From: a virus
DNA length: 29,349 nt
Virus record (IMG/VR): IMGVR_UViG_3300014720_000126
Location: 1 to 29,349 of that record
Reading direction: 5' to 3' (one strand)
The translations under genes and the position numbers were made by a program. Position 1 is the stretch's first letter. Each line of letters starts with the position of its first letter. The notes under the pieces were generated by a model that saw only the letters and a program-made list of their open reading frames with translations, searched no databases and was not told the origin of the DNA. Shown here piece by piece: positions 12,993 through 26,486 of the stretch.

Positions 12993-13023
12993 GGGGGAAG
13001 CTATGCCGTGGAAGGTGGAGCGG

Positions 13024-13052
13024 CCTAGGGGAGATGTCTAGGGGTGCGGGTC
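13024..13052 (-). promoter_or_regulatory. 29-bp repeat element upstream of portal
   Basis: A near copy (25/29) of the element at 10680-10708. Two CTAGGGG words (13025-13031 and 13038-13044) lie inside. It ends 32 bases upstream of the portal GTG. It is a candidate minus-strand late-gene control element, inferred from position and conservation. Confidence 0.5.
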
Positions 13053-13139
13053 GAGGTTGCCGGCCGCCGTGGATAGGCTCTCGCGGGCCGGCTCGCGATG
13101 GGAAAGGAGGGTTTCTGCCTCGGCTCTCACGGCTTACCG

Positions 13140-13159
13140 CCGGAGCGGTGAAGCTCCGG
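13140..13159 (-). other. Hairpin after the ParB-like gene
   Basis: CCGGAGC (13140-13146) and GCTCCGG (13153-13159) form a perfect 7-bp stem with a 6-base loop, 28 bases after the stop at 13188. It lacks a following T-run on the minus strand, so termination is possible but unproven. Together with the repeat at 13024-13052 it fills the 195-base gap before the portal gene. Confidence 0.45.
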
Positions 13160-13187
13160 GTTGATCGGGGTCGAGCTACGCACGCCG

Positions 13188-14051: not shown

Positions 14052-14057
14052 TAGTTT

Positions 14058-14672
14058 TCACTCCTGTTTTGCCCACGACACGACGGACTCCAGCACGCGC
14101 TCGTAGGCTTCCAGCGTGCCAGGGTTGACGATCTCCAGCGTGCTCCGCTCTGGGCCGTGCGGCGCGCGCCAGTTCCAGTAGTCCCGAGAGTCGCCCTCGA
14201 ACGTGCAGCCCTCGCGGTGAATGTGGACCAAGAGGCACCGCTCCGCCATCGCCGCCAGCGGTTCGGACTCCGCGCGGAATCCCGAGTCGGTCACGATCAC
14301 CGCGCGCGGCTTCGGGTAGGCCGGATCGTTCAGCGTCGCCGCCACGTCATCGGCCAGCATCTTCCCAAGCACGTCCTCACCGTGCATCGGCTTCAGGTAG
14401 CGCTCCGAGACGGCGATGTACGCCTGGCGCGGGGTCAGCCCGAGGAACTCCGGGCGAGGCGAGTCCTTCGAGGTCTCGTACTCCGCGTGCCCCTTCGGCG
14501 CTCCGGTGCGGTCCACGATGCCGTAGAGCGCGTGGGTCCGCTCCTTCAACAGCCGAGACATCTTCTCGACCCAGACAACCGAGCCGTCGCCACCGATGCG
14601 CCGCTCAAGCACGAATCCCGCCGTGTCCTTCCCGCACCGGGGCGGGCCGTTCAGGAGGATGAGGGACTTCAC
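14058..14672 (-). CDS. P-loop (deoxy)nucleoside monophosphate kinase-like protein
   Basis: A 204-residue protein from a GTG at 14672, which overlaps the previous stop as GTGA. A longer in-frame reading exists, but the overlap and the immediate VKSLILLNGPPRCGKDT start favour this one. Residues 9-17 are a Walker A loop (GPPRCGKDT), near the N-terminus as in nucleotide kinases. AVIVTDSGFRAE near residue 127 could be the Walker B-equivalent strand, and VHIHREGCTFEGDSRDYW follows. The pattern resembles phage dNMP kinases and P-loop kinases that raise nucleotide pools or phosphorylate modified bases. The substrate cannot be told from sequence alone. Confidence 0.65.
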   Translation of the reverse strand: MKSLILLNGPPRCGKDTAGFVLERRIGGDGSVVWVEKMSRLLKERTHALYGIVDRTGAPKGHAEYETSKDSPRPEFLGLTPRQAYIAVSERYLKPMHGEDVLGKMLADDVAATLNDPAYPKPRAVIVTDSGFRAESEPLAAMAERCLLVHIHREGCTFEGDSRDYWNWRAPHGPERSTLEIVNPGTLEAYERVLESVVSWAKQE

Positions 14673-14875
14673 GACGCCCGCACCGGAACGCGATGCGTCC
14701 ACGGCCCCTGCCTGCTCGTCTCGACCCACTGCGCCACCGCGCTCGGGCGGAAGAAGTACCGCCAGCGCCGACGCTGATTGCCAGCGAGACGCCAGTCAGC
14801 GCCGAGCTTCGCCAGCCCCGCACGGTTCCGCCAGCGCAGCTCGCGCTTCTCGTGCCTCGTCTTGAGCTTCAACAT
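14669..14875 (-). CDS. Small basic protein, unknown
   Basis: A 68-residue, very basic and Trp-rich protein (EKRELRWRNRAGLAKLGADW, then a RRRWRYFFRPSAVAQWVE segment). A strong AAGGAG lies about 7 bases before the ATG at 14875, one of the clearest ribosome-binding sites in the block. Its TGA overlaps the GTG of the kinase gene. The positive charge suggests nucleic-acid binding, but no family is recognised. Confidence 0.55.
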   Translation of the reverse strand: MLKLKTRHEKRELRWRNRAGLAKLGADWRLAGNQRRRWRYFFRPSAVAQWVETSRQGPWTHRVPVRAS

Positions 14876-14891
14876 GCGTCGTCTCCTTCGT

Positions 14892-14984
14892 TCAAGCCCG
14901 AGCGGTCCGGTGTTTCATGCGGCCACCAATCAAGGCCTGTCGCGGGATCTCCCCGCGCACCATGCCGGACCGCTCGGTGTTCAT
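14892..14984 (-). CDS. Micro-ORF (30 aa)
   Basis: The ATG at 14984 overlaps the preceding stop as ATGA, giving a 30-residue basic peptide (begins MNTERSGMVRGEIPRQALIG). Only the overlap supports translation; the peptide has no recognisable motif. It may be a genuine small protein or an accidental reading between two genes. Confidence 0.3.
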   Translation of the reverse strand: MNTERSGMVRGEIPRQALIGGRMKHRTARA

Positions 14985-15322
14985 CGAATCCCCCGCGTCT
15001 CGTTCCACTCGCGACGCTTCTCCTCGGTCCGCATTGCGTCCGGAAGCCACCGCGCGACATCCTCTTGCAGAGCCAACAGCCCCGAGAGGATCCACTTCCG
15101 CGCTTCCGTCTCGTTCCGAGTCGTGCGGCGCTCGTCCCCCTCGTCGTACTCCATCGCCTCCAACGCGGCCTTGAACGCCATGCGCTGCCGGGTCAACAGC
15201 ACCAGCACGAGGTCGCCCTCCTTGATCGACGGGCCGACATCCGGCGGCTTGCGCTGCCGTAGACGGAGCGGCGGAATCTGCCCCGTGCGACGCATACCGC
15301 CGCTGGATCGGTCGAGGTTCAC
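14981..15322 (-). CDS. Phage protein of unknown function
   Basis: A 113-residue protein from a GTG at 15322 that overlaps the stop of the GroES-like gene as GTGA; longer in-frame readings run into that gene and are disfavoured. The N-terminal 35 residues are basic. The middle (SIKEGDLVLVLLTRQRMAFK) and the C-terminal half (RKWILSGLLALQEDVARWLP) look helical. No family is recognised. It is coupled to the GroES-like gene. Confidence 0.5.
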   Translation of the reverse strand: MNLDRSSGGMRRTGQIPPLRLRQRKPPDVGPSIKEGDLVLVLLTRQRMAFKAALEAMEYDEGDERRTTRNETEARKWILSGLLALQEDVARWLPDAMRTEEKRREWNETRGIR

Positions 15323-16173
15323 GCGGCACTCGGCTCCGCCCCGGGCAGTATCACCCCGCGAATGCATGGGTACTCGCGGATCATCAGCACGCGGCCCGGA
15401 GCGTTCCACCCCTCGTCCATGTCGATTGGCTGAGCGTTCGGCGCGGTGCCCTTCGCGATGGCGCGATCCCCCACCTTGACGATGTGCGGCGCGCGGCCCA
15501 TCCGGTCACCGTCGAGGCATCGAGTGATCGTGTTCAGCCCCGGCCCGCGCTTGAGCACCTGAACCGTCCAAGTGTTCTCGCGGCGCTCCTGGTCGCGGTC
15601 CGGGCCAAGGTGGATCCGCAGCGGCCGGCCCGACAGGTCCACGAGGCGCGGACCGGCGCGGACGACGTGCTCGCTCTGCCGCTCGTCCATCCGCACGAGT
15701 AGCCAGTCCTGCACCGGCTCGAGCCGATCAGCCCAGCCCGGCACGTCGTACCGCCCGCGAATCGACACCGGCACGGGTCCGGGCGCGGGTGGGAGTTCCT
15801 CGTCGCCATCTTCGGCCTCGCCCGCGCCGGCCACGGTCGCGATGACCGAGCCGTCGCGGATGAGCTTGTAGCCGTACCCCGTCGGCGTCGTTTCGCGCGG
15901 CACCAGCGGCAGGAAGTCGCCCGCGCCGACCTCGAACAGGACGCGATGCCCGACCTCGCACGTCGTGGGCATCCGCGTGCGCCCGTCATCGGAGAGCTTG
16001 CCCGGACCGCGCTGCACCACGAGTCCCGTGCGCGAGCTCGGCTTGATCGTCCCGGGGATCTCGATGCCGCCCTTTGTGCGCGCAATCGGCGGGTCCAGGC
16101 GGATGAGGATGAAGTCCTCGTGCAACGTCACGTGCGTCTCGAGCTTTTCGTAGCTGATTCCGACAGTAGCCAT
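15319..16173 (-). CDS. Tandem GroES (Cpn10)-like domain protein
   Basis: A 284-residue protein that appears to hold two GroES-type domains. Domain 1 (about 16-116): HEDFILIRLDPPIARTKGGI, where TKGGIEIP (33-40) matches the mobile loop that binds GroEL, then TGLVVQRGPGK (49-59), EVGHRVLFE (73-81) and YKLIRDGSVIATV (102-114). A Pro/Glu/Asp-rich linker (117-150) follows. Domain 2 (about 153-277) repeats the order: VQDWLLVRMDERQ, VLKRGPG, VKVGDRAIAKG and RVLMIREYPCIRGVI. Its mobile-loop region is longer and lacks GGI. A normal GroES is about 95 residues. Phage co-chaperonins such as T4 gp31 help fold capsid protein; position beside terminase and upstream of the head genes fits. The ATG is at 16173, with a long inverted repeat in the leader. 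Confidence 0.7.
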   Translation of the reverse strand: MATVGISYEKLETHVTLHEDFILIRLDPPIARTKGGIEIPGTIKPSSRTGLVVQRGPGKLSDDGRTRMPTTCEVGHRVLFEVGAGDFLPLVPRETTPTGYGYKLIRDGSVIATVAGAGEAEDGDEELPPAPGPVPVSIRGRYDVPGWADRLEPVQDWLLVRMDERQSEHVVRAGPRLVDLSGRPLRIHLGPDRDQERRENTWTVQVLKRGPGLNTITRCLDGDRMGRAPHIVKVGDRAIAKGTAPNAQPIDMDEGWNAPGRVLMIREYPCIRGVILPGAEPSAA

Positions 16174-16182
16174 GTGGTGGGT

Positions 16183-16246
16183 GACGGTCGCGCCGCCGGG
16201 GGTGCGGGAGAACTGAGTAGCGGGTCAGTTTGGCGACGCGACCGTC
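16183..16246 (-). promoter_or_regulatory. Long inverted repeat in leader of GroES-like gene
   Basis: GACGGTCGCG (16183-16192) and CGCGACCGTC (16237-16246) are perfect 10-bp inverted arms enclosing 44 bases. On the minus strand the structure ends 9 bases before the ATG at 16173, so it could hide or expose the initiation region. It does not match the CIRCE element of bacterial groES operons. The rest of the 164-base gap holds only the small GC hairpin after the terminase stop. Confidence 0.5.
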
Positions 16247-16320
16247 GAAGGCGCGTGCTATGCGCAGGACCATGCGCCATCAAGCACAATCCCGCGAAAG
16301 CTTGGCCCTTCGTTCAGGCC

Positions 16321-16336
16321 CGGGCGGGCTCGCCCG
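16321..16336 (-). terminator. GC hairpin directly after large terminase stop
   Basis: CGGGCG (16321-16326) and CGCCCG (16331-16336) pair around GGCT, one base after the terminase stop at 16338. No T-run follows, so if it terminates at all it would be partial, or it may protect mRNA ends. Confidence 0.3.
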
Positions 16337-16337
16337 A

Positions 16338-17663
16338 TCAGAACTCCACGACCTCGAAGCCACGGCCCGCGTCCTTCGCCGCCCACGCCGCAAGCATCAG
16401 CGCGCACACACAGTCGTCATGCTGGCCGTTCGGCGCGCTGGTCTTGACCGCGCCGGCCTCGGTCACCGTGAACTCGAACGCCTCAAGCTCCTCGATGCCC
16501 TCCGGCCACAGCTCGTACCGGGGCAGCGCGATCTCGCCACGCTCGCACAGGAGCGCCAGGTTGTTCACCAGAGCGGCCTTGCTCGCCGCCGTGAACGGGT
16601 ATCCGTCCGCGCGAATGCCCGCCTCGAGCAGCGCCTCGTATACCGGCTCGCCCGCGCCCGTCGAGTCTACGAGCGTGTAGCAGTGCCCGAAGCGCTCCGT
16701 CGTGGCGTGGATCCGCGAGACCTGGACCTTCCAGTCCACGCGCGTGAACCGCTCGACGTGGACAACCCGCCTCGCCCGAGCGTCCATCACCACGAGCACC
16801 GTGTAGTCGTTCACGCGCGCGAGGTCGAGGCCCGCGACGTAGCGGACATCCGGCATCGGTGCCGACCACGCATCGACCGTCGCAAGGTCTCGCACGTTGC
16901 GGAACACCGCACCCGCTCCCTCGATGAACTCGGCCAGGTACTCCTGGCGGAAGATCGCCTCGGGGATGCGCTGGCGGATCGCCTCGAGCTCGGCAGGGTC
17001 GATCTTCGGATTCGTGACAGTCGGGCTGTTCCACGACTCGAAGCCTCCGAGCTTTTTTTGTCCCATGCGCCACGCCTCGTAGAACCAGCCCTTGCCCTTG
17101 GGGCTCGATATCAAGAGCGCCCAGCCCTTCTTATCGAGCAAGCGCGCCGAGAGGAACCTCTCCCATGTGTCGGCCTTGACTCGGCTGGCCTCGTCGATGA
17201 TGAGGAAGTCGAGGCCCTCGCCGAGCAGCGAGACCGGGTTATCCGCCGACTTCCCGCGCAGCTCGGTGAAGCCGCCCCCCATGTTCCGCACGATGATCGT
17301 CCGCTCGTGCTCGGACACCCGCACCACGAACGGCATGAGCTGGCTCTGGAAGATCAGGGCCAGCTCGCGGAACACCTTGTCGCAGAGGTCGTAGAACGGC
17401 GCGGCGATCCACCCGCGACGGAACGTGTCCGGCGGGCTCGGCTGGAGCGCGGCGGCGACAGCCTCGCCGGCGGCGCATGTCGTTTTCCCCCATCGCACCC
17501 CGCAGGCCAGCACGCGCCTCGGCGCAAGCGACTCATGCACCGGACGCTGCCCCGCGTGCGGCTCGTAACCGATGCTCCGGAAGATGCGGAACTTGTCGAG
17601 CGGATCCGGCGCGCGAATCAGCGCAGGGACACTACCCATCCGCGCACGACGCTTCGCCAGCAC
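16338..17663 (-). CDS. terL: Terminase large subunit
   Basis: A 441-residue protein with the two-domain terminase layout. The ATPase part has a Walker A-like GVRWGKTT (55-62), Walker B LDFLIIDEAS (D157, E158) and a coupling-motif SSPKGKG. The nuclease part has acidic residues in AGLDLARVNDYTVLVVMD, DSTGAGEPVYEALLEAG and NGQHDDCVCALMLAAW, as expected for RNase H-type metal ligands. It cuts concatemeric DNA and powers packaging through the portal. The reading shown starts at a GTG at 17663; an ATG at 17639 (MGSVPALIR) is equally plausible, and neither has a clear Shine-Dalgarno. The small-subunit candidate lies 66 bases upstream. Confidence 0.9.
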   Translation of the reverse strand: MLAKRRARMGSVPALIRAPDPLDKFRIFRSIGYEPHAGQRPVHESLAPRRVLACGVRWGKTTCAAGEAVAAALQPSPPDTFRRGWIAAPFYDLCDKVFRELALIFQSQLMPFVVRVSEHERTIIVRNMGGGFTELRGKSADNPVSLLGEGLDFLIIDEASRVKADTWERFLSARLLDKKGWALLISSPKGKGWFYEAWRMGQKKLGGFESWNSPTVTNPKIDPAELEAIRQRIPEAIFRQEYLAEFIEGAGAVFRNVRDLATVDAWSAPMPDVRYVAGLDLARVNDYTVLVVMDARARRVVHVERFTRVDWKVQVSRIHATTERFGHCYTLVDSTGAGEPVYEALLEAGIRADGYPFTAASKAALVNNLALLCERGEIALPRYELWPEGIEELEAFEFTVTEAGAVKTSAPNGQHDDCVCALMLAAWAAKDAGRGFEVVEF

Positions 17664-17729
17664 GCGAGCGGGAACCGCTGCGCGGTCGTGAGCGTATCCT
17701 GTCCGTCAAGCGAGCGGAAGAGCCGCAGG

Positions 17730-18125
17730 TCACGGCCTACCCTCTGGCTGGCCGTCCTTGTCCGGCTTCGCCACGAACTCGGCGTCCTCCACCGGACCAG
17801 CACCAGGCCGAGGCGATGCCCACTCGCGCCACAGTCGAGCCATCAGCGCCGACACGTCCTGCTGAGCGTCCGGCGGGGCCGGCACGGCCTTGCCCATCAT
17901 CCGGTCCAGGAACTCGTGGATCGCCCACGGCTCGCCGCCTTTCGCGTTGCGGATCAGCTCCGCCCAGACCTCCAGCATGTCCTGGTCGGTCGTCGCGTCA
18001 AATGCCAACGCGCGCCACCTCGACTGCGTTTTCGCCGCCCCGCCGACCCCTACCGCAGCCTGATTGCCTACGACGAAGCGGCCCTTGCCGTCCCTGCCGT
18101 CATCTTTCCGTGCATTCGGTTCCAC
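17730..18125 (-). CDS. Probable terminase small subunit
   Basis: A 131-residue protein immediately upstream of the large terminase. The N-terminus has a DGKGRFVVGNQAAVG segment, as in several phage proteins at this place. A helical core (DQDMLEVWAELIRNAKGG, then PWAIHEFLDRMMGK near residues 60-80) and a charged C-terminal tail follow. Small terminase subunits bind the packaging site and stimulate the large subunit. No clear N-terminal HTH can be seen, so the call depends on order and size. It starts at a GTG at 18125. A small CTCGCC/GGCGAG hairpin (18139-18157) lies in its leader. Confidence 0.55.
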   Translation of the reverse strand: MEPNARKDDGRDGKGRFVVGNQAAVGVGGAAKTQSRWRALAFDATTDQDMLEVWAELIRNAKGGEPWAIHEFLDRMMGKAVPAPPDAQQDVSALMARLWREWASPRPGAGPVEDAEFVAKPDKDGQPEGRP

Positions 18126-18186
18126 GAACGGATGGATACTCGCCTATGCGCGGCGAGCAATAGCGGCATGGATAGATCCGGGGTTG

Positions 18187-18399
18187 CTACGCGCCCGGTC
18201 GCTTCGACTTCGGCCAGTCGAAGATGCGATTCAGGATGACGCTCTGGACCCGTCGGTTGCACGGCGCGCACAGCGTCGGCGCTCGAGACGACCCGGGCGG
18301 CGCGGAGCTGGTGCGGACCGCGCCACACTGGCATACGTAGGTGTAGGTCCGATCCTTCGATGGTTCGGTGGGGTACTTGTGGCGTCTTGCGCGGGTCAT
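18187..18399 (-). CDS. Small zinc-ribbon protein, paralog 2
   Basis: A 70-residue protein with two Cys pairs: YVCQCGAVR near residue 22 and LCAPCNRR near 45, with no other Cys. Its layout (KYPT.P, then C.CG.VR, then AP..CA.C, then L.RI) repeats that of the gene upstream. The ATG at 18399 overlaps the upstream stop as ATGA, which decides the start. Both proteins resemble small zinc-binding phage proteins before the terminase genes, where HNH nucleases are common, but no HNH His residues are evident. A role in DNA binding or packaging is a guess. Confidence 0.55.
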   Translation of the reverse strand: MTRARRHKYPTEPSKDRTYTYVCQCGAVRTSSAPPGSSRAPTLCAPCNRRVQSVILNRIFDWPKSKRPGA

Positions 18400-18629
18400 T
18401 GCTTGGCCATGGGTTGATGGAGTCCTGCTTTTCGGCCCTTGCGTGGTCGCTTCGCCATGATCCGCTTCAGCGCCATGCGCTGCGCGTTGTTGTGACAGGT
18501 CGCGCACGTCTTTGGCGCGTAGTGCGCATCGGGCCTGCAAGCGTGGAGTCGAACCGATCCGCATCGGTTGCAGACGTGCTCATGTTGCGCGGCTCGAGGC
18601 GGCGTGGTCGGGTACTTGAAGCGCGGCAC
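18396..18629 (-). CDS. Small zinc-ribbon protein, paralog 1
   Basis: A 77-residue basic protein with CNRCGSVR near residue 20 and CATCHNN near 42, likely one structural zinc site. The C-terminus is strongly basic (KRIMAKRPRKGRKAG). It is a tandem paralog of the downstream gene. The start is a GTG at 18629; a TGA lies two codons upstream in frame, so it cannot be longer. This is the first gene after the hairpin at 18653-18686, and so probably the first of the packaging block. Confidence 0.55.
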   Translation of the reverse strand: MPRFKYPTTPPRAAQHEHVCNRCGSVRLHACRPDAHYAPKTCATCHNNAQRMALKRIMAKRPRKGRKAGLHQPMAKQ

Positions 18630-18644
18630 GGGTCAGATCTGGCG

Positions 18645-18686
18645 GAAAAGAAGGAGGCCGACCCGCCCCTGCGCGGATCGGCCTCC
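18645..18686 (-). terminator. Probable intrinsic terminator between early-left and packaging genes
   Basis: GGAGGCCGA (18653-18661) and TCGGCCTCC (18678-18686) form a perfect 9-bp stem with a 16-base loop. On the minus strand the stem is followed directly by TTCTTTTCC. This is the only hairpin with a T-rich tail I found in the minus-strand block. It lies between the membrane micro-protein gene and the zinc-ribbon pair. The gap 18630-18747 holds nothing else I recognise. Confidence 0.6.
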
Positions 18687-18747
18687 AGGAAGCGATGGAT
18701 CGGCCATGCAAACCGAGCCGCGCTTCACACCGGGAGAGTGCATCGGG

Positions 18748-18903
18748 TCACGCCAGCGTCAGGATGACGGCGGCGATGATGGGGACGGCGATGAGGCCAA
18801 GGAAGAACCGCGCGTCTTGAGCGCGGGTCTGGAACATGCCGGGCGTCTCGGCACCGTGGTAGGTGTGGACGATGCGTCCGTTGCGGAGGACGTGGTTAGC
18901 CAC
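18748..18903 (-). CDS. Small single-pass membrane protein
   Basis: A 51-residue protein from a GTG at 18903 overlapping the end of the previous gene by 8 bases. After a hydrophilic first 32 residues (with MFQTRAQDAR), residues about 33-51 form a hydrophobic helix (FFLGLIAVPIIAAVILTLA) that ends the protein. This fits a C-terminal tail anchor. No known small phage membrane family (such as a holin) is recognised, and one helix with no charged tail makes a holin uncertain. It is the last gene before the terminator. Confidence 0.5.
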   Translation of the reverse strand: MANHVLRNGRIVHTYHGAETPGMFQTRAQDARFFLGLIAVPIIAAVILTLA

Positions 18904-19144
18904 GGGTGGCCTCCGTGGATACGTACGGCGCTACGTTGTCCGGGCCCCAGATGCGACCGTTGTAGCTGACGTGCGCTACGGTTTGCCACGTCACGGAGTC
19001 CACCACAGTGAGGCGCGGGAACTTGCTCGCGCCGACGTTGAGCTTCTTGCGCAAATCGGCGCAGAAGTCGGATGCGTCCTCGACGCGCTCCAGCGGGATC
19101 ATCTCGGGCCGCTTTCCGACGCGGAGAGCGTACTTGGCCTTCAC
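18896..19144 (-). CDS. Small phage protein, unknown
   Basis: An 82-residue protein from a GTG at 19144 overlapping the previous stop as GTGA. It begins VKAKYALRVGKRPEMIPLER and has a basic segment (DLRKKLNVGASKF), then beta-like stretches (RLTVVDSVTWQTVAHVSYNG). No family recognised. It is part of the overlapping early-left operon. Confidence 0.5.
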   Translation of the reverse strand: MKAKYALRVGKRPEMIPLERVEDASDFCADLRKKLNVGASKFPRLTVVDSVTWQTVAHVSYNGRIWGPDNVAPYVSTEATRG

Positions 19145-19707
19145 GCCAACCTCCGCAGGCTGGCGCGACCGTGGCGCAGCAGGAACGCGCCGACCTCGGT
19201 CGCGCTCCCCGTCTTCGTCTCGGCGATAACGCGCTTCACCAGCTCGCCCAGCGCGAGCGTGCGCAGCGTCTCGACCGTGAATCGCTCGTCGCACTCCTGG
19301 CACTCCGCCACGCGCGGCTCCTTGTGCGCCCACTTGAGCTTCCCGGTGCAGCCCTCGACCAGGCACGCGCCCGGACGGCTACCCAGCGCGCGGCAGCCCT
19401 CGCAGTCGTGGCCCGGCGCGTCCGTGAAGTGCTCGCGCCCGCACTCGGTGCAGCTCTCGCGGCGCTCCGGCGCGAAACGGCCAAGCTCGTCGCAATCCAT
19501 GTCGTAGCCCTCGTGATCGGTGTGCATGTCGTTCATGGAGCACCCTACACTCCGCCGCGCCCGATCCTTCACGCCCGATTGGGATTTTTTCTGCGGGCGT
19601 GAACTTCCGGCCTTTGGGCACCCCGGGCAGGTCCACGCGCGCCCGGGCAGCCACGGGAAAGGGCTGGCCGTCTCGCGCATCCGGCGGCGGCACGCTGGGC
19701 ACCTCAC
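19141..19707 (-). CDS. Cys-rich multi-zinc-ribbon protein
   Basis: A 188-residue protein from a GTG at 19707, which overlaps the preceding stop as GTGA. Cys pairs recur through it: CPAC near residue 3, CPGC near 27, then CTECGREH, CEGC, C...C and CQEC in the middle, suggesting two or three zinc sites. The C-terminal part (TLRTLALGELVKRVIAETKT) is helical. A shorter protein from the ATG at 19536 (MNDMHTDHEGYDMD) is possible and would lose the first ribbon; I favour the long form because the ribbon is well formed. The likely role is nucleic-acid binding, but the family is not recognised. Confidence 0.5.
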   Translation of the reverse strand: MRCPACRRRMRETASPFPWLPGRAWTCPGCPKAGSSRPQKKSQSGVKDRARRSVGCSMNDMHTDHEGYDMDCDELGRFAPERRESCTECGREHFTDAPGHDCEGCRALGSRPGACLVEGCTGKLKWAHKEPRVAECQECDERFTVETLRTLALGELVKRVIAETKTGSATEVGAFLLRHGRASLRRLA

Positions 19708-20003
19708 CGTCGCGCCCTCCCGCACCCCGCGCAGACCGTCCAGGACGGCACGTTCCGCTTGTGTCCACAAGCTGGACACTCCGCGCCTTGCCTGTAAACG
19801 CTCCCAGATGCGCCAGGAGACGACTTCGGCGCGCGGGGGTCCGGACGGTCGGCCACGCGGCGATCTTCGCCTGGCGTGGCCTTTCCGGAAGCGCCCGCCC
19901 GTTCCGGCCCGTTCAGCGCATCCCCAGCGCGCGCCAACACCTGGGCGGGCAGGATCGGGCGGGGCTCCCCGTCGTGCTCCGGGCGGATTTCAGCGCGTGC
20001 CAT
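19704..20003 (-). CDS. Protein with C-terminal zinc ribbon, unknown
   Basis: A 99-residue protein. The first 70 residues are Pro-, Arg- and Glu-rich and probably disordered. The last 25 carry a zinc ribbon, CPACGHKRN followed by VCAGCGRARR. The same spacing appears at the C-terminus of the adjacent replication protein (CRACGH..., VCASCGR). The ATG at 20003 overlaps the end of that gene by 14 bases. It may act with the initiator, for example by binding the same DNA, but this is inference. Confidence 0.5.
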   Translation of the reverse strand: MARAEIRPEHDGEPRPILPAQVLARAGDALNGPERAGASGKATPGEDRRVADRPDPRAPKSSPGASGSVYRQGAECPACGHKRNVPSWTVCAGCGRARR

Positions 20004-20895
20004 TCAGGCTCGTCTCGCTGGTGGCAGCGTGCAGGGGGCGTCCACAGGATGCGCAGACGATTGCCGTCGGTGCGCTGACATGCCCGCATGCTCGACACCC
20101 GGCATCAGCCTTCCATGCTTCGTGGCCTCTAGCGCGAGAAAGGCTTAAGGCCGGACGACCAGGCCGGCCAAAGGATCGAAGATCATCGCCAGTAGGCTCG
20201 ACCAGGTTTTTCCAGCCGCGCGCGATGGTGTGGTCGATGGCGGCAAGCGCCCGGGGTATGCCCCACGATGCGAGTTCGGCGAGGGACTGGTCGCCGCTGG
20301 ACTGAGTGACCGGCTTCTGGATTTCGACCCGGTGCTTGAGCCAGCGGTCCCACGCTGCGGCGAATGAGTTTCCGGAAAGCGCGTCCGGGATCGTTCCCTT
20401 CCAGACCCGTTTTTTCCTGCGCTCGGCCGGAGCCGGCACAGCCGGCGGAGGAGGGGTCCCCGCGCCAGCGGGGGGCTGTACAGGGGGATCTTCTTCTCTT
20501 CTCTCCTCTCCTCTCCTCTGGTCACGCTCGACCGTGACAGGCCCGTCACGCTCGACCGTGACGCGCTTTTTGCGCTGCCGTTCAGATGCGAGCGCCCGCG
20601 CTTTCGCGCCGGCCTCGTTGTGCCTATCCCATTTCGGGAACACGAGATAGGTGTCGCCGACCTCGAGCCATCCGGCCTCCTTCATGGCGGCGGCAAGGCC
20701 GGGCGTCTGCGTGATCTTGTCGAGCAGCGCAGGCGTGGCGAGCGGCACTTTCCCGTCGTCAGAAAGGCGACCCGCCCAGCTCCACGCGGCGGCAAGCGCG
20801 CCGACAACGTGTAGGGCTGTCACGCTGCACCGTGACGCGATGAAGTCCACCGCCGGATCGGCGTGGATGTCGTCCCGGACCTTGATCCAGCTCAT
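19990..20895 (-). CDS. Phage replication initiator / replisome organizer-like protein
   Basis: A 301-residue protein from the ATG at 20895 (overlapping the upstream stop as ATGA). Residues 1-115 look like the winged-helix N-terminal domain of phage replication proteins of the O/DnaD type: MSWIKVRDDIHADPAV, then LLDKITQTPGLAAAMKEAGW, and the typical PKWDRHNEAGAKARALASER followed by RQRKKR. A low-complexity linker (Glu/Arg, then Pro-rich, about 115-165) follows. A C-terminal helical domain (FAAAWDRWLKHRVEIQ, SLAELASWGIPRALAAIDHT) and a final zinc ribbon (CRACGH...VCASCGR) end it. The gene contains dyad repeats and a polypyrimidine tract suited to an internal origin, as in lambda O. It probably loads the host helicase. 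Confidence 0.65.
   Translation of the reverse strand: MSWIKVRDDIHADPAVDFIASRCSVTALHVVGALAAAWSWAGRLSDDGKVPLATPALLDKITQTPGLAAAMKEAGWLEVGDTYLVFPKWDRHNEAGAKARALASERQRKKRVTVERDGPVTVERDQRRGEERREEDPPVQPPAGAGTPPPPAVPAPAERRKKRVWKGTIPDALSGNSFAAAWDRWLKHRVEIQKPVTQSSGDQSLAELASWGIPRALAAIDHTIARGWKNLVEPTGDDLRSFGRPGRPALSLSRARGHEAWKADAGCRACGHVSAPTAIVCASCGRPLHAATSETSLNGTR
20490..20562. other. Putative replication origin: two 18-bp iterons and polypyrimidine tract
   Basis: The 18-mer GTCACGCTCGACCGTGAC occurs exactly at 20521-20538 and 20545-20562, a 24-base period. Each copy is itself an inverted repeat (GTCACG / CGTGAC). Directly alongside is a pure pyrimidine run of 30 bases (20490-20519). All lie inside the replication initiator gene, as lambda's iterons lie inside gene O. 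A third, slightly changed copy is at 20819-20836. Function is inferred from the pattern. Confidence 0.55.
20819..20836. repeat. Third iteron copy (two bases changed)
   Basis: GTCACGCTGCACCGTGAC keeps both GTCACG/CGTGAC arms of the iterons at 20521 and 20545 and differs only in the two central bases. It lies 257 bases from the pair, near the 5' end of the same gene. Confidence 0.55.
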
Positions 20896-21107
20896 GCCTC
20901 TCCCGCCCCCCTCTTCCGCTCTGCGAGCATCGCGTCGGCGAACCCGTAGGCGTCGCTGGCGGCATCCTCGAACTTCCGGCACCCGTACGCGCAGATTCCA
21001 GCGAGCGCCTGGGACGCGAAGTAGTCGCGGAGCGTCATGCCCTTGAACTGAGAGCCCAGGTCGGGAGGGAACGCCGGCCCGCCGTCGTCGATGGGTTCGC
21101 CACTCAC
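20892..21107 (-). CDS. Small conserved phage protein (GMTLRDYFA type)
   Basis: A 71-residue protein from a GTG at 21107 overlapping the upstream stop as GTGA. It has the familiar order of a widespread small phage protein: DDGGPAFPPDL, then GMTLRDYFASQALAG, and a C-terminal DAYGFADAMLAERKR. Its function is unknown in any phage I can name; it usually lies among replication-region genes, as here. Confidence 0.65.
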   Translation of the reverse strand: MSGEPIDDGGPAFPPDLGSQFKGMTLRDYFASQALAGICAYGCRKFEDAASDAYGFADAMLAERKRGAGEA

Positions 21108-21334
21108 GCCGCACCGCCCATCTTCCGCTCGACCACGAGCGAGGACTCGCGCGCGGCGTCGTTGCCCTGCTTGATCTTTGCCTGGCCCATCTTCGACAGA
21201 TCGACGAAGCGCGACCCGCAGGCCGTGCACTTGACTCCGCCGGCCCGAAGCGTCTCGTGACGCATCACGCAGAACCGCGTCGAGCACTCGGCGCAGGTGA
21301 ACACGACCGAACCGGTGGGGCGGCGACGGCTCAC
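21104..21334 (-). CDS. Small zinc-ribbon protein
   Basis: A 76-residue protein from a GTG at 21334 (GTGA overlap). FTCAECSTRFCVMRH (about 12-26) and VKCTACGSRFVDLSK (about 34-48) form a classical CxxC...CxxC zinc ribbon. The C-terminal half is polar and helical. It may be a DNA- or RNA-binding regulator of the early-left operon, but no family is recognised. Confidence 0.55.
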   Translation of the reverse strand: MSRRRPTGSVVFTCAECSTRFCVMRHETLRAGGVKCTACGSRFVDLSKMGQAKIKQGNDAARESSLVVERKMGGAA

Positions 21335-21630
21335 GGCGCCACCTCCGCAGCCTCGGCGCAGTCCAGCGCGACATCGAGCGCCGAGACGAGCCCGCCCCGG
21401 GTGACCTTGTTCACGAGCGGCGTGCAGCCGCGCATCAGCTCGACCTCCCAGTCACCGTTGACGTGCTCCGCCGCCTCGAGCGACGTGACGCCGGCCTCGG
21501 CCAGGCGGGCGAAGATCCGCGCGCAGCGGACCAGGAGGAGCAACTCGGCGGGCGCGAGACAAACCGCCCCGGGGCCGCCGAACATGCCCTTGGCGCAGAA
21601 CGCCAGCTCGTCCAGTCGTGCAACCTTCAC
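21331..21630 (-). CDS. Small phage protein, unknown
   Basis: A 99-residue protein from a GTG at 21630 overlapping the previous stop as GTGA; the longer in-frame reading upstream is antisense-like and Arg/Pro-rich, so it is rejected. It is helical (LAPAELLLLVRCARIFARLA) with a later WEVELMRGCTPLVNKVTRGG segment. No known family. Second gene of the leftward operon. Confidence 0.5.
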   Translation of the reverse strand: MKVARLDELAFCAKGMFGGPGAVCLAPAELLLLVRCARIFARLAEAGVTSLEAAEHVNGDWEVELMRGCTPLVNKVTRGGLVSALDVALDCAEAAEVAP

Positions 21631-21893
21631 CGGGCCACCCCCATCCGGTTCGCGCAGGTCCCGAGCGTGAGCGAAGAAAGCCCCCTCGCCGCAGCTTCTC
21701 GCACGACTCGGGAGATTCCGTCGAGCGCAGTGCCGAGCTGGCCGCCGGACAGTCGCAGTACGTTGGCGACGGCGAGGGGGTGATGGAGTTCGGATTCGCG
21801 TTCGGGGCGGATGCCGGCGGAGCGGCAAGCGCAGTCGAAGGCGTGGTCGAGGGTGGCGACGACCTTGGACGGGACGGAACGGGCGCGGGCCAT
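21627..21893 (-). CDS. Small phage protein, first gene of leftward operon
   Basis: An 88-residue protein starting MARARSVPSKVVATLDHAFD, mainly helical, with no recognised family. The ATG at 21893 has a strong GGGAGG Shine-Dalgarno about 6 bases upstream, one of the best in the window, as expected for the leading cistron. That Shine-Dalgarno lies between two arms (GACACC 21896-21901 and GGTGTC 21907-21912) that could pair and modulate initiation. Every gene from here to 18748 overlaps the next. Confidence 0.5.
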   Translation of the reverse strand: MARARSVPSKVVATLDHAFDCACRSAGIRPERESELHHPLAVANVLRLSGGQLGTALDGISRVVREAAARGLSSLTLGTCANRMGVAR

Positions 21894-21917
21894 GGGACAC
21901 CTCCCGGGTGTCTCCGA

Positions 21918-21952
21918 GCGTCACCGCGCGTCACCGGCTCCCACCGTGGGAG
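21918..21952 (-). promoter_or_regulatory. Operator-like repeats upstream of leftward operon
   Basis: CTCCCAC (21938-21944) and GTGGGAG (21946-21952) form a perfect 7-bp inverted repeat with a single-base centre. Next to it GCGTCACCG occurs twice (21918-21926, 21928-21936), 10 bases apart and so on one face of the helix. They lie 25-59 bases upstream of the first gene. I could not define -35/-10 boxes. Probably a promoter/operator; which protein binds is unknown. Confidence 0.45.
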
Positions 21953-21968
21953 TCAGATCGGCCCGGGG

Positions 21969-21980
21969 CCTATCCGGCCC
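21969..21980. repeat. 12-bp repeat flanking attP core, copy 1
   Basis: CCTATCCGGCCC occurs here, just left of the attachment core, and again exactly at 22217-22228 on the other side, over the integrase stop codon. This suggests one class of recombinase or accessory-protein arm site. Confidence 0.45.
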
Positions 21981-21999
21981 TCTCATCCTGCCTGAACCT

Positions 22000-22049
22000 T
22001 GGTAGCGGGGGCAGGATTCGAACCTGCGACCTCCGGGTTATGAGCCCGA
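22000..22049 (-). other. attP: attP core: 3' half of initiator tRNA-Met gene
   Basis: Read on the minus strand, this is the 3' part of an initiator-type tRNA-Met: an anticodon arm with CAT at 22042-22040 and the GGG/CCC stem typical of initiators, a variable loop, a T-arm with stem GCAGG/CCTGC and loop TTCGAAT, an acceptor strand CCCCGCT, and encoded CCA ending at 22000. Upstream sequence (22050-22076) cannot form the D-arm or the 5' acceptor strand, so it is not a complete tRNA gene. Phage attP sites that use tRNA genes carry just such a 3' half, which rebuilds the host tRNA on insertion. The integrase gene lies 168 bases away. Confidence 0.75.
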
Positions 22050-22165
22050 AGGTCACGGGATGGTCGGATGTCGGGCGGTCTCGGAACCGCTCGACTCGGC
22101 GGGGCCTAGTACGCCACTCGCTGCCGCGACATGCAAGCGGAGCGGGAAAAATCCGCGCGCGGTCG

Positions 22166-22272
22166 GTCCGGCAACAGGTCCGGCAAGGTGCCAGACCCGG
22201 AACCGCCCGTGGCGACCCTATCCGGCCCGGTCCGGCAGCTTGTCCGGCAGCTTGTCCGGCAGAGGTCCGGCA
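22166..22272. repeat. Six direct GTCCGGCA repeats (integrase arm-site candidates)
   Basis: GTCCGGCA occurs at 22166, 22178, 22230, 22242, 22254 and 22265, with spacings of 12, 52, 12, 12 and 11 bases. An inverted near-copy (TGCCAGAC, 22190-22197) pairs with the second to make a 9-bp hairpin. Two copies lie outside the integrase gene and four inside its 3' end, where they encode the PDKLPDKLPDR tail. Position next to the attP core suits arm-type binding sites of a tyrosine recombinase. The remaining attP-side sequence, 22050-22165, shows nothing further I recognise. Confidence 0.55.
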
Positions 22273-23279
22273 ACGTCCCGCCTCTTCCCGACCTTGGGCA
22301 GCGTCCCGAGAAATCCGCGCGCCGCCTCGGCCTGAATGTGCGCGTAGACTCGGAGCGTCATCTGCGGTGAGGCGTGCCCCATGACGGCCTGAACGACCGG
22401 AACCGGGACGGCGGCGGTCAGGAGCCGGGTGCAGCAGGTGTGCCGGAGCGTGTGGACGTTGAGCGCGTAGCCGTCCCTCGAGCGGAACCTGCCCGCCTCG
22501 TCGCGCTCGAGCAGGCCCGCGCGCTCGTAGGCTGGACCGATGATGCGCCGCCGGAAGTTCGGCGCGGCCTTGGTCCAAGTCCGGCCCGTGGGCGACAGGA
22601 AGATCCGATCCCGCGCCGCCGGCATCGCCCCGAGGATGCGCGCGCAGTCCAGGCGGTACCGCTCGAGCTCGCGGGCCGTCTCGGTCAGGATCGGGATGGC
22701 GCGGAGCGTGTCGGTCTTGGTCGTCTCGGCGCGGAAGGTCAAGGTCTCGCCGGCGAGGTCGAGGTCGGCCCAGGTGGCGAGGGTCAGCTCGCCCCATCGC
22801 GCGCCCGTCTCGAAGAGGACCCGGACGACGATGGCCTGAGGGATGCGCGGCCCTCGGCTACCCGTCTCGGCGTCCATCTCGGCCACGGCGGCGAGGAGCT
22901 TCTCCAGCTCCCAGTCGGCGAGCGCGCGTGGCCGGCGTCGCTGGTGCCTCGGTCCGACCGGAAGCGCCTCGAAGCCGGCGAGCGGGTGCGCCGGGATCAG
23001 CTCGTCATCGACCGCGCAGGCCAGCGCGGCGAGGAGCACGGCGAGCTGGTTGTTCGCGGTCTTGTTCGACGCGCCCGCCGCGAGGAGACCGTTGCGCCAG
23101 ACCTTGACGCGCGCCCGGGAGATCTCGGCTACCGTCTCGACGCCGAGCCCCGCGATGACACGCTGGAGAATCGCACGGGACTCCTTGACCGTCCTCGGAC
23201 GTGCCCGCGCCGAGAGTCCGGCGAGGTAGTGCTCGGCCAACTGCGCGACCAACATCCCCTGTGGAGAGGACAGTACCAC
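22218..23279 (-). CDS. int: Tyrosine integrase (site-specific recombinase)
   Basis: A 353-residue tyrosine recombinase with a complete catalytic set: Arg161 in FETGARWGEL, Lys188 in the TTKTD beta-turn, His276 and Arg279 in VHTLRHTC, His302 in MGHASPQMT, and Tyr312 in LRVYAH. Residues about 10-95 form the core-binding (SAM-like) domain. A basic stretch (RHQRRRPR) precedes the catalytic domain. It integrates the phage at attP, which adjoins its 3' end. The short C-terminal PDKLPDKLPDR repeat is unusual and coincides with the GTCCGGCA DNA repeats. The start is a GTG at 23279 or an ATG at 23255; neither has a well-spaced Shine-Dalgarno. Inverted repeats with CCCGA arms lie just upstream, so repressor control is likely. 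Confidence 0.93.
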   Translation of the reverse strand: MVLSSPQGMLVAQLAEHYLAGLSARARPRTVKESRAILQRVIAGLGVETVAEISRARVKVWRNGLLAAGASNKTANNQLAVLLAALACAVDDELIPAHPLAGFEALPVGPRHQRRRPRALADWELEKLLAAVAEMDAETGSRGPRIPQAIVVRVLFETGARWGELTLATWADLDLAGETLTFRAETTKTDTLRAIPILTETARELERYRLDCARILGAMPAARDRIFLSPTGRTWTKAAPNFRRRIIGPAYERAGLLERDEAGRFRSRDGYALNVHTLRHTCCTRLLTAAVPVPVVQAVMGHASPQMTLRVYAHIQAEAARGFLGTLPKVGKRRDVAGPLPDKLPDKLPDRAG

Positions 23280-23432: not shown

Positions 23433-23717
23433 CTAGGATCGCGGTCGCTTGTCCTGCGTGAGCCCGAGCAGGTAGTCGGCGGAGACATCGAGGGCGCGCG
23501 CGAGTCGAAGCAGGATCTGCACACTCATGCCCTGGTCGGCGGTGACGATGCGCGAGACCTTCGTGATCGAGACGTTGGCGCGCCAGGCGAGTTCCTGCTG
23601 GCTCCACCCGCGCGACTCGTAGAGGTCGCGGATGCGCTTGCCCATGGACTCGGCGAGGTCCCCGTCGATTTCTTCGCGCCCGAGGTCGGCCTTCGAGGAT
23701 GTGGATCGTTTCGGCAT
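23433..23717 (-). CDS. XRE-family phage repressor
   Basis: A 94-residue protein from the ATG at 23717 (MPKRSTSSKADLGREEID). A lambda-repressor-like HTH spans about residues 25-82: IRDLYESRGWSQQELAWRAN, VSITKVSRIVTADQGMS and ILLRLARALDVSADYLLGL. It lacks a C-terminal LexA-like peptidase domain, so induction by self-cleavage is unlikely. It is divergent from the rightward early operon and next to the integrase, the classic lysogeny-switch layout. A minus-strand TTGATA (23753-23748) 17 bases before TACTTG (23730-23725) would start transcription almost at the ATG, suggesting a leaderless mRNA. A TCGGGAG half-site lies between these boxes. Confidence 0.8.
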   Translation of the reverse strand: MPKRSTSSKADLGREEIDGDLAESMGKRIRDLYESRGWSQQELAWRANVSITKVSRIVTADQGMSVQILLRLARALDVSADYLLGLTQDKRPRS

Positions 23718-23724
23718 GACGCCA

Positions 23725-23810
23725 CAAGTACCTAGCTGGTCGGGAGTTATCAAGCGCCGTCCGTTTTCTCCCGATTGGGCTTGAAGGTCCATGGCTGGCC
23801 GGTCGTAATG
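23725..23810. promoter_or_regulatory. Divergent promoter/operator region of the lysogeny switch
   Basis: TCGGGAG (23740-23746) and CTCCCGA (23768-23774) are inverted arms 21 bases apart. The second merges with CCCGATTGGG (23770-23779). Leftward boxes TTGATA (23753-23748) and TACTTG (23730-23725) face the repressor. Rightward TTGAAG (23781-23786), with 18 bases to GTAATG (23805-23810), faces the gene at 23818. Both would give nearly leaderless transcripts, consistent with the lack of Shine-Dalgarno sequences. The boxes are read by eye and are weak matches. Confidence 0.45.
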
Positions 23811-23817
23811 GCGCGGC

Positions 23818-24180
23818 ATGAATGCCACGACAGACACCGACCCTCTACCCCTCCTGGACTTCATCGACCGGACGGACGCCATCCGCGCCGGGCAGGCCCG
23901 CGCCGATCAGGCGATGGCCAAGGCCGAGGAGGCCGAACCGGGCTTCAAGGCCCTCGCGCTCGAAGCGGTCCGCCGTCACGCGCTGAGGGTCGAGCGGTTC
24001 CTGGCCGAGCACGTCACGCTTCCCCCGCTCCCCTCCGGTCGGAAGCGGAACGGCGTCATGGGGTCGCTCATGCCCGAGGCGGTCCGACGCGGCTATGTCG
24101 CTGCGGACGGGTTCGCCATCGACAGCCACGGTAGCCCCAAGACGGCGTGGAAGTCGCTCATCGTCGGGGGTGCGGCGTGA
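23818..24180 (+). CDS. Small conserved phage protein, first rightward gene
   Basis: A 120-residue protein starting MNATTDTDPLPLLDFIDR. A helix (RADQAMAKAEEAEPGFKALA) is followed by HALRVERFLAEHVTLPP and RRGYVAADGFAIDSHG. The second half has the shape of small phage winged-helix-like proteins near integrases (an R.NGVMGSLMPEAVRRGYV turn and a C-terminal Trp), whose role is not established. No Shine-Dalgarno precedes the ATG; a promoter-like pair immediately upstream suggests leaderless translation. Its TGA overlaps the next GTG as GTGA. Confidence 0.55.
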   Translation: MNATTDTDPLPLLDFIDRTDAIRAGQARADQAMAKAEEAEPGFKALALEAVRRHALRVERFLAEHVTLPPLPSGRKRNGVMGSLMPEAVRRGYVAADGFAIDSHGSPKTAWKSLIVGGAA

Positions 24181-26486
24181 GCTACCAGAAGTTCCTCGCG
24201 CAGAAGCTGGAGCGGTTCGAGCCGATGGGATTCGAGCCGACGGGACTTCCGCCGATGCTGTTCGAGTTCCAGCGCTTGATCGTGGACTGGACGGTCCGCC
24301 GTGGACGCTGCGCGATCTTCGCTGGATGCGGGCTCGGCAAGACTCCGATGCAGCTAGCGTGGGCGGAGCAGGTGCGCCGCAAGACCGGGCGGCACGTCCT
24401 CGTTCTCGCGCCTCTCGCCGTGACAGCGCAGACCGTGCGCGAGGGCGAGAAGTTCGGCGTGGCCGTCGTGCCGATCAAGTCGATGGCCGATCTGCCGAGC
24501 GAGCCGAGCGTGTGCGTCGCCAACTACCACAAGCTCCTCGGTGGGCACATCGACGCCGCGGCCTTCTCCGGCGTCGTCTTGGACGAGTCGAGCATCCTCA
24601 AGAGCTACATGGGGAAGACGAAGCGGCTCCTCATCGAGTTGTTCTCGCAGCACGAGTACCGTCTCTGCTGCACCGCGACGCCCGCGCCGAACGACTACAC
24701 CGAGATCGGGAATCACTCCGAGTTCCTCGGCGTCATGGACTCGAACGAGATGCTCTCGCGCTGGTTCATCGCGGACCAGTCCGACTGCGGCAACTACCGG
24801 CTCAAGGGACACGGAGCAAAGGACTTCTGGGAATGGGTCTCGTCGTGGGCCGTTTGCATTGATCGCCCTTCCGATGTCGGGTGCGCCGACGCCGGCTTGG
24901 AGCTTCCGCCCCTGAACGTCTCGCAGCACATCGTCGAGGTGGATATCACGAGCGGGGCCGCTGACGGAACGCTGTTCCGTACGCCCGACCTCGCCGCAAC
25001 TGGACTGCATCGCGAGATGCGCCTGACGGCAGAGGCGCGCGCGGCGAAGGTCGCGGCGCTTGTGGCATCTCCCGGGCCGTGGATCGTCTGGTGCAACACA
25101 AACTACGAGGCGGACGCGCTCGTGTCGCTCATCCCGGGCGCGCTCGAAGTTCGCGGCAGCGAGGACGAAGACGAGAAGGAGCGGAAGCTCCTGGCCTTCT
25201 CGAATCAGGAGGCGCGCGTGCTCGTCACCAAGCCGAGCATCGCCGGCTTCGGCATGAACTGGCAACACTGTGCGCAAGTCGCGTTTGTCGGCCTGAGCTA
25301 CTCGCACGAGCAGTACTACCAGGCCGTGCGCCGCTCGTGGCGCTTCGGACAAACGCGCCCGGTCGAGTGCCACATCGTCCGAGCAGAGACGGAGGGCGCT
25401 GTGCTCTCCGCGATCCAACGCAAGGAGCGGGACGCCGAGGAGATGCGCGCGGAGATGATCGCAGCCTCTCGTCGCGGCCTGAAAGACACGAAGGTCAGGA
25501 AGCTCAATATGTCGGAACGGGATGCAGTCAAGACGGACAAGTTCGAGATGATCCTCGGCGACTCCTGCGAGGTCGTGAAGGAGATGCCGGAGAAGTCCGT
25601 CGACTTCACGATCTTCTCGCCGCCGTTCGTCGGCCTCTACATCTACTCCGAGGCCGCGGCGGACATGGGGAACTCCGCCGACTGGGAGGAGTTCTTCCGT
25701 CACTACGAGTACCTAGCGCCCGAGCTGCTTCGCGTTACTGTCCCGGGCCGACTCTGCGCGGTCCACTGCAAGGACCTGCCGCGCTACGCGAACCGCGACG
25801 GCACGGCAGGACTGCTCGACTTCCCCGGCGCGCTGGTCGCATCGATGGAGAAGAGCGGCTGGAGCTTTCACTCGCGCGTGACCGTGTGGAAGTGCCCCGT
25901 GACGGAGCGCGAGCGCACCAACAACAACGGCCTGCTCTTCAAGACGGTGCAGCGCGATTCGACCCAACTCCGCATGGGCATGGCGGACTACCTGCTCCTG
26001 TTCCGCCGACCTCCGGAGGACGGACTCCTCTCGTCGAAGCCGATCGCGCGCAAGGGCGGATGGAGCGAGTACGCCGGCGAGGTCGATCCGCGCACAGAGT
26101 CGAGCGCGCACCCGGCGAAGTACGCAAGGAAGTCCTCGGATAACCACGGCCTCGCGATCTGGCAGCGGTACGCCGAGCCCGTCTGGTGGGACATCGAGCA
26201 GACGGACACGCTGAACGAGACGCTGGCGCGCGAGTCGAAGGACCAGAAGCACATCTGCCCGCTTCAGCTCGGACTGATCCGCCGCGCGCTCCACATATGG
26301 AGCCAGCCCGGAGATGTCGTGTTCTCTCCGTTCGGAGGCATCGGCAGCGAGGGCGTGGTGTCGCTCCAGGAAGGCCGGCGCTTCGTCGGCGTCGAGCTGA
26401 AACGCGCGTACTGGGAGAAGGCCGTCGGGTTCCTGCGCGGCGTGAGCGTCCAGCCGTCGCTCTTCGCCGAGGACGGTGCCGCATGA
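24177..26486 (+). CDS. SNF2-like helicase fused to DNA methyltransferase
   Basis: A 769-residue protein from a GTG at 24177 (GTGA overlap). Helicase part, about 1-435: motif I GCGLGKTPM (50-58), motif II VLDESSIL (DESS at 136), motif III CTATPAPND (165-173), motif V RVLVTKPSIAGFGMNWQ (347-363) and motif VI YYQAVRRSWRFGQTRPVE (380-397). Methyltransferase part, about 455-755: ILGDSCEVVKEMPEKSVDF followed by catalytic SPPF (481-484), and the SAM-binding FGGIGSEG (719-726) near the C-terminus. Catalytic motif before SAM motif is the beta order; SPPF is commonest in N4-cytosine enzymes, though N6-adenine is possible. It probably modifies phage DNA against restriction, with ATP-driven movement or remodelling. 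No nuclease domain or separate restriction gene is seen. Confidence 0.85.
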   Translation: MSYQKFLAQKLERFEPMGFEPTGLPPMLFEFQRLIVDWTVRRGRCAIFAGCGLGKTPMQLAWAEQVRRKTGRHVLVLAPLAVTAQTVREGEKFGVAVVPIKSMADLPSEPSVCVANYHKLLGGHIDAAAFSGVVLDESSILKSYMGKTKRLLIELFSQHEYRLCCTATPAPNDYTEIGNHSEFLGVMDSNEMLSRWFIADQSDCGNYRLKGHGAKDFWEWVSSWAVCIDRPSDVGCADAGLELPPLNVSQHIVEVDITSGAADGTLFRTPDLAATGLHREMRLTAEARAAKVAALVASPGPWIVWCNTNYEADALVSLIPGALEVRGSEDEDEKERKLLAFSNQEARVLVTKPSIAGFGMNWQHCAQVAFVGLSYSHEQYYQAVRRSWRFGQTRPVECHIVRAETEGAVLSAIQRKERDAEEMRAEMIAASRRGLKDTKVRKLNMSERDAVKTDKFEMILGDSCEVVKEMPEKSVDFTIFSPPFVGLYIYSEAAADMGNSADWEEFFRHYEYLAPELLRVTVPGRLCAVHCKDLPRYANRDGTAGLLDFPGALVASMEKSGWSFHSRVTVWKCPVTERERTNNNGLLFKTVQRDSTQLRMGMADYLLLFRRPPEDGLLSSKPIARKGGWSEYAGEVDPRTESSAHPAKYARKSSDNHGLAIWQRYAEPVWWDIEQTDTLNETLARESKDQKHICPLQLGLIRRALHIWSQPGDVVFSPFGGIGSEGVVSLQEGRRFVGVELKRAYWEKAVGFLRGVSVQPSLFAEDGAA

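Follow-up and report, generated by a model that had tools for sequence, protein, structure and literature searches.

Why a short DNA repeat should run from intergenic sequence into the 3′ end of an integrase gene, and whether the DNA or the encoded peptide is what is kept there, is the question raised by this locus. The window, i.e., the whole stretch of DNA analyzed, is a 29,349-base viral contig that encodes the portal and capsid genes of a phage. A preliminary description had reported six exact copies of GTCCGGCA, and all six were found on the + strand within positions 22166-22272 (Table 1). Its "mostly 11-12-base spacing" describes four of the steps between starts (12, 52, 12, 12, and 11 bases), the remaining one being a 52-base gap. 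In 200 dinucleotide shuffles of the whole window, no 8-mer of any sequence occurred more than 3 times within 107 bases, versus the 6 copies observed. The spacings of 12, 12, 12, and 11 bp are slightly above one helical turn. The linkers vary in sequence and length (ACAG, AGGT, GCTT, GCTT, GAG, and ACGT; 3 to 4 bases), and the 8-mer is constant. Only 22230-22262 is a perfect tandem (12-bp period, 2.8 copies by TRF), and thus recent duplication can account for three copies, which may indeed stem from such an expansion, but not for the whole array. For the 3′ end of int, RNA folding yielded a z score of -1.8. Elsewhere in the window, the left-end region contains an internal duplication (1888-2559 versus 3247-3873, approximately 75% identity), seen as off-diagonal self-matches, and the open reading frame (ORF) at 24147-26486 combines SNF2/helicase and N6/N4 DNA methyltransferase parts.

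Table 1. Features of the window around the repeat array and the integrase gene (int).
Feature	Position	Strand	Basis or remark
Replication-initiation ORF	19990-21114		
Far-arm direct repeat GCGTCACCG, two copies 10 bp apart, motif different from the array	21918-21936	+	TRF 21910-21936, period 10; sequence reading
Lone degenerate ATCCGGCC, far arm	21972-21979	+	
attP core, initiator tRNA-fMet 3′ half from the anticodon stem-loop through CCA	22000-22049	-	Exact 50-bp match and ARAGORN
Array copy 1, outside int	22166-22173	+	
Array copy 2, outside int	22178-22185	+	
Tyrosine integrase (int), 353 aa, core-binding and catalytic domains, without arm-binding domain	22218-23279	-	PF00589, PHROG phrog_1, relatives' alignment
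Degenerate copy ATCCGGCC, over the int stop codon	22220-22227	+	Inside a 12-base exact repeat of 21969-21980 (other arm)
Array copy 3, within int, translated LPD	22230-22237	+	
Array copy 4, within int, translated LPD	22242-22249	+	
Array copy 5, within int, translated LPD	22254-22261	+	
Array copy 6, within int, other codon phase (AGP)	22265-22272	+	
Cro/C1-type helix-turn-helix regulator, upstream of int	23433-23717	-	PF13560, E 3.1e-11; longer ORF 23433-23882
Helicase-methyltransferase ORF	24147-26486		

The integrase gene ends in ...AGPLPDKLPDKLPDRAG followed by its stop codon. Two copies of the repeat lie beyond the stop and four inside the gene, of which three share one codon phase (LPDKLPDKLPD), and the one at 22265 is read as AGP. 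The array had been described as entering the gene as PDKLPDKLPDR; four copies do lie in the gene, but only three are in frame, and the tetrapeptide repeat is made by those three. Selection on the peptide, with the LPDK repeats forming a functional C-terminal tail, would agree with three copies in one frame at a 12-base period, but hardly with two copies past the stop and one out of frame, nor with the tails of related integrases, which lack a shared sequence and in many cases continue through the tRNA itself; we regard this explanation as extremely improbable. The position of two copies past the stop, the out-of-frame copy, and the constancy of the 8-mer with changing linkers argue for DNA-level selection. 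As had been proposed, it thus appears from these features that the DNA, not the peptide, is kept in the array.

We identified the DNA that the array adjoins by matching it to host genomes. The 50 bases of the core are matched exactly by 74 GTDB genome stretches, the majority of them from Planctomycetota, and a whole tRNA-Met gene was present at the core match in 12 of 12 loci checked with ARAGORN. The GGGCTCATAACCC anticodon arm, a known feature of initiator tRNAs, identifies the gene as initiator tRNA-fMet. The identity of the 50-bp core with tRNA genes found chiefly in Planctomycetota makes the locus an attP, of the kind that targets a tRNA by carrying a segment of its gene, and because phage genes lie on either side of the core, the contig shows this attP in its unintegrated state. 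The host is likely, but not certainly, a member of the Planctomycetota, as some Myxococcota, Chloroflexota, and others carry this tRNA segment too. The array sits between int and the tRNA-derived core, with phage genes flanking both sides in the window; the core is 117 bases from the start of the array and 168 bp from the int stop codon.

We propose, with a probability of roughly 70%, that the array is the integrase-side arm of attP, composed of short, direct, putative protein-binding sites spaced about one helical turn apart. The sites would help to assemble the complex for integration or excision at the tRNA-derived core. With the stop codon of int falling inside this arm, a portion of the array is also read as a protein tail, and the tail peptide would be a by-product. 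We infer both protein binding by the window array and the identity of the binder.

The placement of arm sites within the recombinase gene had been put forward in the preliminary description, and two features of such sites can be compared with the window. Short repeated sites near the core and adjoining int are present. In contrast, the recurrence of one motif on both sides of the core, typical of Int arm-type sites, fails in the window, where the far side holds only a degenerate ATCCGGCC; the + strand contains no GTCCGGCA at one mismatch or fewer in the 300 bp beyond the core. A direct repeat of a different motif, the GCGTCACCG pair, lies there (Table 1).

Both ends of the integrated element could be located through the duplicated tRNA 3′ end in three islands of related integrases (G016, G269, and G415, carrying integrase loci L103, L128, and L118, respectively). 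In all three, the motif of the integrase end recurs 53 to 86 bp inside the far end, as a 12-bp-spaced pair in G016 and G269 and as a single copy in G415. Elsewhere in the 16 to 37 kb of these islands, at most one copy of the motif was found, at a stringency set per motif. Judged from these sequences, candidate arm-type sites thus flank the core on both sides in each island. For the integrase of L103, which has an arm domain, TGTGTCGGTG is the putative binding target. On contig C111 of G415 (12462-22684), a single tRNA-Met gene is occupied by two islands in tandem, and the same arm motif, AACTGACCG, is present at each integrase end as well as at the junction that the islands share.

In a survey of 64 integrase loci of Planctomycetota, we aligned the sequence that follows the catalytic domain; some of these loci share a genome or clade and are thus partly non-independent. 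A repeat spaced by 11 or 12 bp, with one mismatch in 11 allowed and the regions anchored on the catalytic domain, was found within 300 nt past this domain in 21 of the 64 loci, versus 0.78 expected from shuffles, the 11/12-bp spacing having been picked once the spacing profile had been seen. The catalytic domain itself, used as a control stretch, yielded such repeats in 3 loci. An initial scan for exact 9-mers around the stop codon, at spacings of 10 to 13 bp picked after an initial look, had found repeats in 10 of 46 loci (0.43 expected from shuffles) and in none of 18 Xer-type genes. The spacing profile has its maximum at 12 bp (16 loci), and the repeats lie at a median distance of 94 nt from the catalytic domain (10-90% range, 69 to 138). 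They are associated with an adjacent tRNA (16/26 versus 8/37; Fisher P = 0.002). A detectable repeat is missing from about 39 to 43 of the roughly 64 relatives, depending on the criterion.

The repeats lie inside int in 15 of the 21 loci and past the stop codon in the other 6, at similar distances from the catalytic domain, and this suggests a stop codon that drifts over a DNA element fixed in its position, probably the att arm. Att-arm repeats in the integrase tail thus appear to be a recurrent layout of Planctomycetota elements (15 of 21 repeat-bearing loci). The suggestion that att structure is coupled to the evolution of the protein tail is better put in terms of this drift. Alignment of related integrases, which had been recommended for seeing whether the tail repeat is absent where the DNA repeat is absent, showed tails that differ freely, unrelated to each other, and that simply translate the underlying DNA. 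The reading frame runs into tRNA or antisense sequence in L087, L114, L124, L127, L128, L130, L132, L158, L160, L161, and L167. Many Planctomycetota tails have tRNA-derived ends, with peptides such as GTRTRNLQIDSLVL, so that annotated tails are partly translated tRNA genes. A motif resembling A-R/K-T-G-T-D/A occurs shortly before the repeats in otherwise unrelated tails (L118, L124, L126, L127, L128, L132, and L150).

The survey also bears on whether the repeats are iterons or operators of a nearby gene. The replication-initiation ORF and the Cro/C1-type regulator gene both lie within 1 to 2 kb of the array, and 11- to 12-bp direct repeats would fit a regulator too, but the repeats of the relatives track the integrase 3′ end and adjacent tRNAs, which makes this origin quite improbable.

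We then considered the integrase as a possible reader of the array. Its catalytic domain matches PF00589 (E 8.5e-20), and the R...K...HxxR...H...Y catalytic residues align with those of relatives (ARWGE, TTKT, HTLRH, MGHA, and RVYAH), which identifies the predicted product as a tyrosine recombinase of the phage integrase type. The match to phrog_1, the PHROG integrase family, starts only at model position 163. In relatives, an arm-binding domain of approximately 70 residues immediately precedes the aligned start of the window integrase, and all 13 close relatives from which the domain profile was built have it just before the core-binding domain. The int ORF opens at the core-binding domain, with at most 31 codons to the upstream in-frame stop, and the regulator gene lies 153 bases upstream of int. 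A search of the six frames of the window with the relatives' profile gave nothing convincing for an arm-binding domain, the best hit (1455-1643, E 0.005) being distant; region 21784-22002, a candidate for this domain, was rejected at E 0.64 under the clean profile. The window integrase therefore lacks the N-terminal arm-binding domain that defines lambda-type integrases, and a gel shift with that domain, as had been recommended, has nothing to use. AlphaFold on the single integrase sequence gave a mean pLDDT of 36, too poor to inform on the domain.

Phylogenetically, the window integrase falls among arm-domain integrases, together with L157 and L161, with support of 95/77, which is under the usual SH-aLRT threshold. 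Both of these nearest relatives have the arm-binding domain (E 2.4e-8 and 2e-18, respectively), and both have 11-bp-spaced repeats in the int tail adjoining a tRNA. This placement suggests that the arm-binding domain was lost secondarily in the window integrase. A GGCA motif common to the window and L157/L161 was discarded, because its strand with respect to int is opposite in the two cases. Outside this trio, L159 (G500:C297) is a second integrase of the wider group without an arm-binding domain, with none in the other upstream frames either; a tRNA-like integrase-tail peptide, GIEPTTFSLG, is located upstream of it. Searches for close integrase relatives in viral contigs, genome contigs, phages, and plasmids found none, Planctomycetota genomes yielding relatives at up to approximately 40% identity; likewise, no close relative of the window attP was found beyond these kin of at most 40% identity. 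Over 19.5 kb (within window 1-21339), the contig IMGVR_UViG_3300013132_000293 (L008/L135) shares 99.95% identity with the window, and it stops at position 21339, short of attP; searches with capsid and portal recovered this single near-identical contig. It adds approximately 500 bases leftward of the window, the same phage having been met twice. The attP-int region is thus known from one contig, and the absence of the arm-binding domain from int may reflect an assembly deletion.

An integrase without the domain that would read the array also fits a neutral tandem duplication in GC-rich DNA that is now functionless. Consistent with this, six viral contigs unrelated to the window carry the triple GTCCGGCA at 12-bp steps, five of them lacking any integrase match, and 22230-22262 is a perfect tandem. 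However, copies 1, 2, and 6 keep the 8-mer despite other linkers and spacings, and the place and spacing of the array agree with those of relatives, which renders neutral duplication improbable. Simple tandem expansion absent from relatives, which the preliminary description had named as evidence against its own proposal, could thus cover three copies but not the whole array, the layout of which recurs. The six viral contigs were dropped as kin of the array, given that they bear no relation to integrase 3′ ends, and a triple GTCCGGCA array was absent from the 392 Planctomycetota genomes searched. Two viral contigs without an integrase match carry 12-bp-periodic GTCCGGCA/TGCCGGAC arrays with varying linkers (L002:1411-1460 and L003:2775-2830).

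If the array is an att arm, it would descend from that of a lambda-type ancestor, the integrase of which read it through an N-terminal arm-binding domain, this domain being the most likely ancestral reader. With the domain gone, the present reader would be a directionality factor or a domain supplied in trans, or else the array is a recent relic. Taking the att arm as given, a recombination directionality factor has a little under an even chance of being the reader; an Int-class domain acting in trans or from a sister phage is conceivable but unlikely, and a relic is rather unlikely. Among the ORFs scanned, no recognized family of directionality factors was found, such proteins being small and diverse.

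In a narrower form of the att-arm reading, the array would be a filament site for an Xis/Cox/Apl-like directionality factor rather than a set of Int arm sites, one-sided, with one helical turn per monomer, and acting in excision. The missing arm-binding domain and the confinement of the array to one side of the core point that way, as does the binding of such factors to direct repeats one turn apart, e.g., Apl at the attP of phage 186 (PMC7498355). Conversely, the 12-bp repeats of relatives flank the core on both sides as pairs, in the manner of Int arms, the array spacing is 12 and 11 bp versus 10 to 11, and no such factor is recognized in the window; we hold this version as a tentative alternative.

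Int arm-type sites are, as far as the sequences tell, the right class for the integrase family, in which the layout recurs. The idea of attP arm sites within the recombinase gene is thus partly supported: the tRNA-derived core beside the array, the spacing and place shared with relatives, and the two arms of the three islands uphold it, but the window integrase is without an arm-binding domain, and the other arm contains no GTCCGGCA. A bolder version, distinctly unlikely in our estimation, is that the arm-less integrase retains an enlarged one-sided array inside its own gene, now read by a different protein; if true, directional control would have moved from the recombinase to a separate factor, the binding sites staying embedded in the recombinase gene. 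Arm sites in the int tail would explain the lack of conservation among Planctomycetota integrase tails and the translated tRNA sequence at many of their ends. They also offer a simple attP-arm finder for genomes, which is to seek 11- to 12-bp repeats just past the catalytic domain. An arm-less integrase with a strong array lends itself to testing whether arm sites can outlive their reader or switch to another.

The Int arm-type sites of mycobacteriophages CrimD and Pixie adjoin int and lie to either side of the core (PMC3203893), and the attP of ICEMlSymR7A has five arm sites (PMC11963761). Like these and other lambda-type arm sites, the window array consists of short direct repeats beside the core and adjoining int; Pixie, whose core likewise derives from a tRNA, has a set of three direct sites on one side (PMC3203893). 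However, those integrases have an arm-binding domain and sites on both sides, whereas the window has a one-sided array and no such domain. Overlap of attP and int is already known from Myxococcus phage Mx8 and from SSV of Sulfolobus, in which the integrase gene runs across attP (PMC6070905, PMC4383910). Similarly, attP overlaps the int 3′ end in the window, and att DNA is also coding, but the core is inside the gene in those systems, whereas here the arm sites alone are inside and the core lies past the stop; integration alters the end of the Mx8 protein and leaves the window integrase unchanged. In the literature covered, which includes few subscription papers, we found no account of arm-type sites in the integrase tail as a recurrent layout.

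The attP of phage 186 carries five 10- to 11-bp-spaced sites for Apl (PMC7498355). As in those sites and in lambda Xis sites, the direct repeats of the window follow one another in tandem to one side of the core, at steps of about one helical turn; they differ in their spacing of 12 and 11 versus 10 to 11 bp and in that no such protein is recognized in the window. Arm-less phage integrases are known from the IntBrujita group (PMC8138268; see also Lunt and Hatfull 2016, as cited in PMC8138268 and PMC6109161). The window integrase similarly has core-binding and catalytic domains only, but unlike the IntBrujita group, it groups among arm-domain integrases and keeps a large repeat array.
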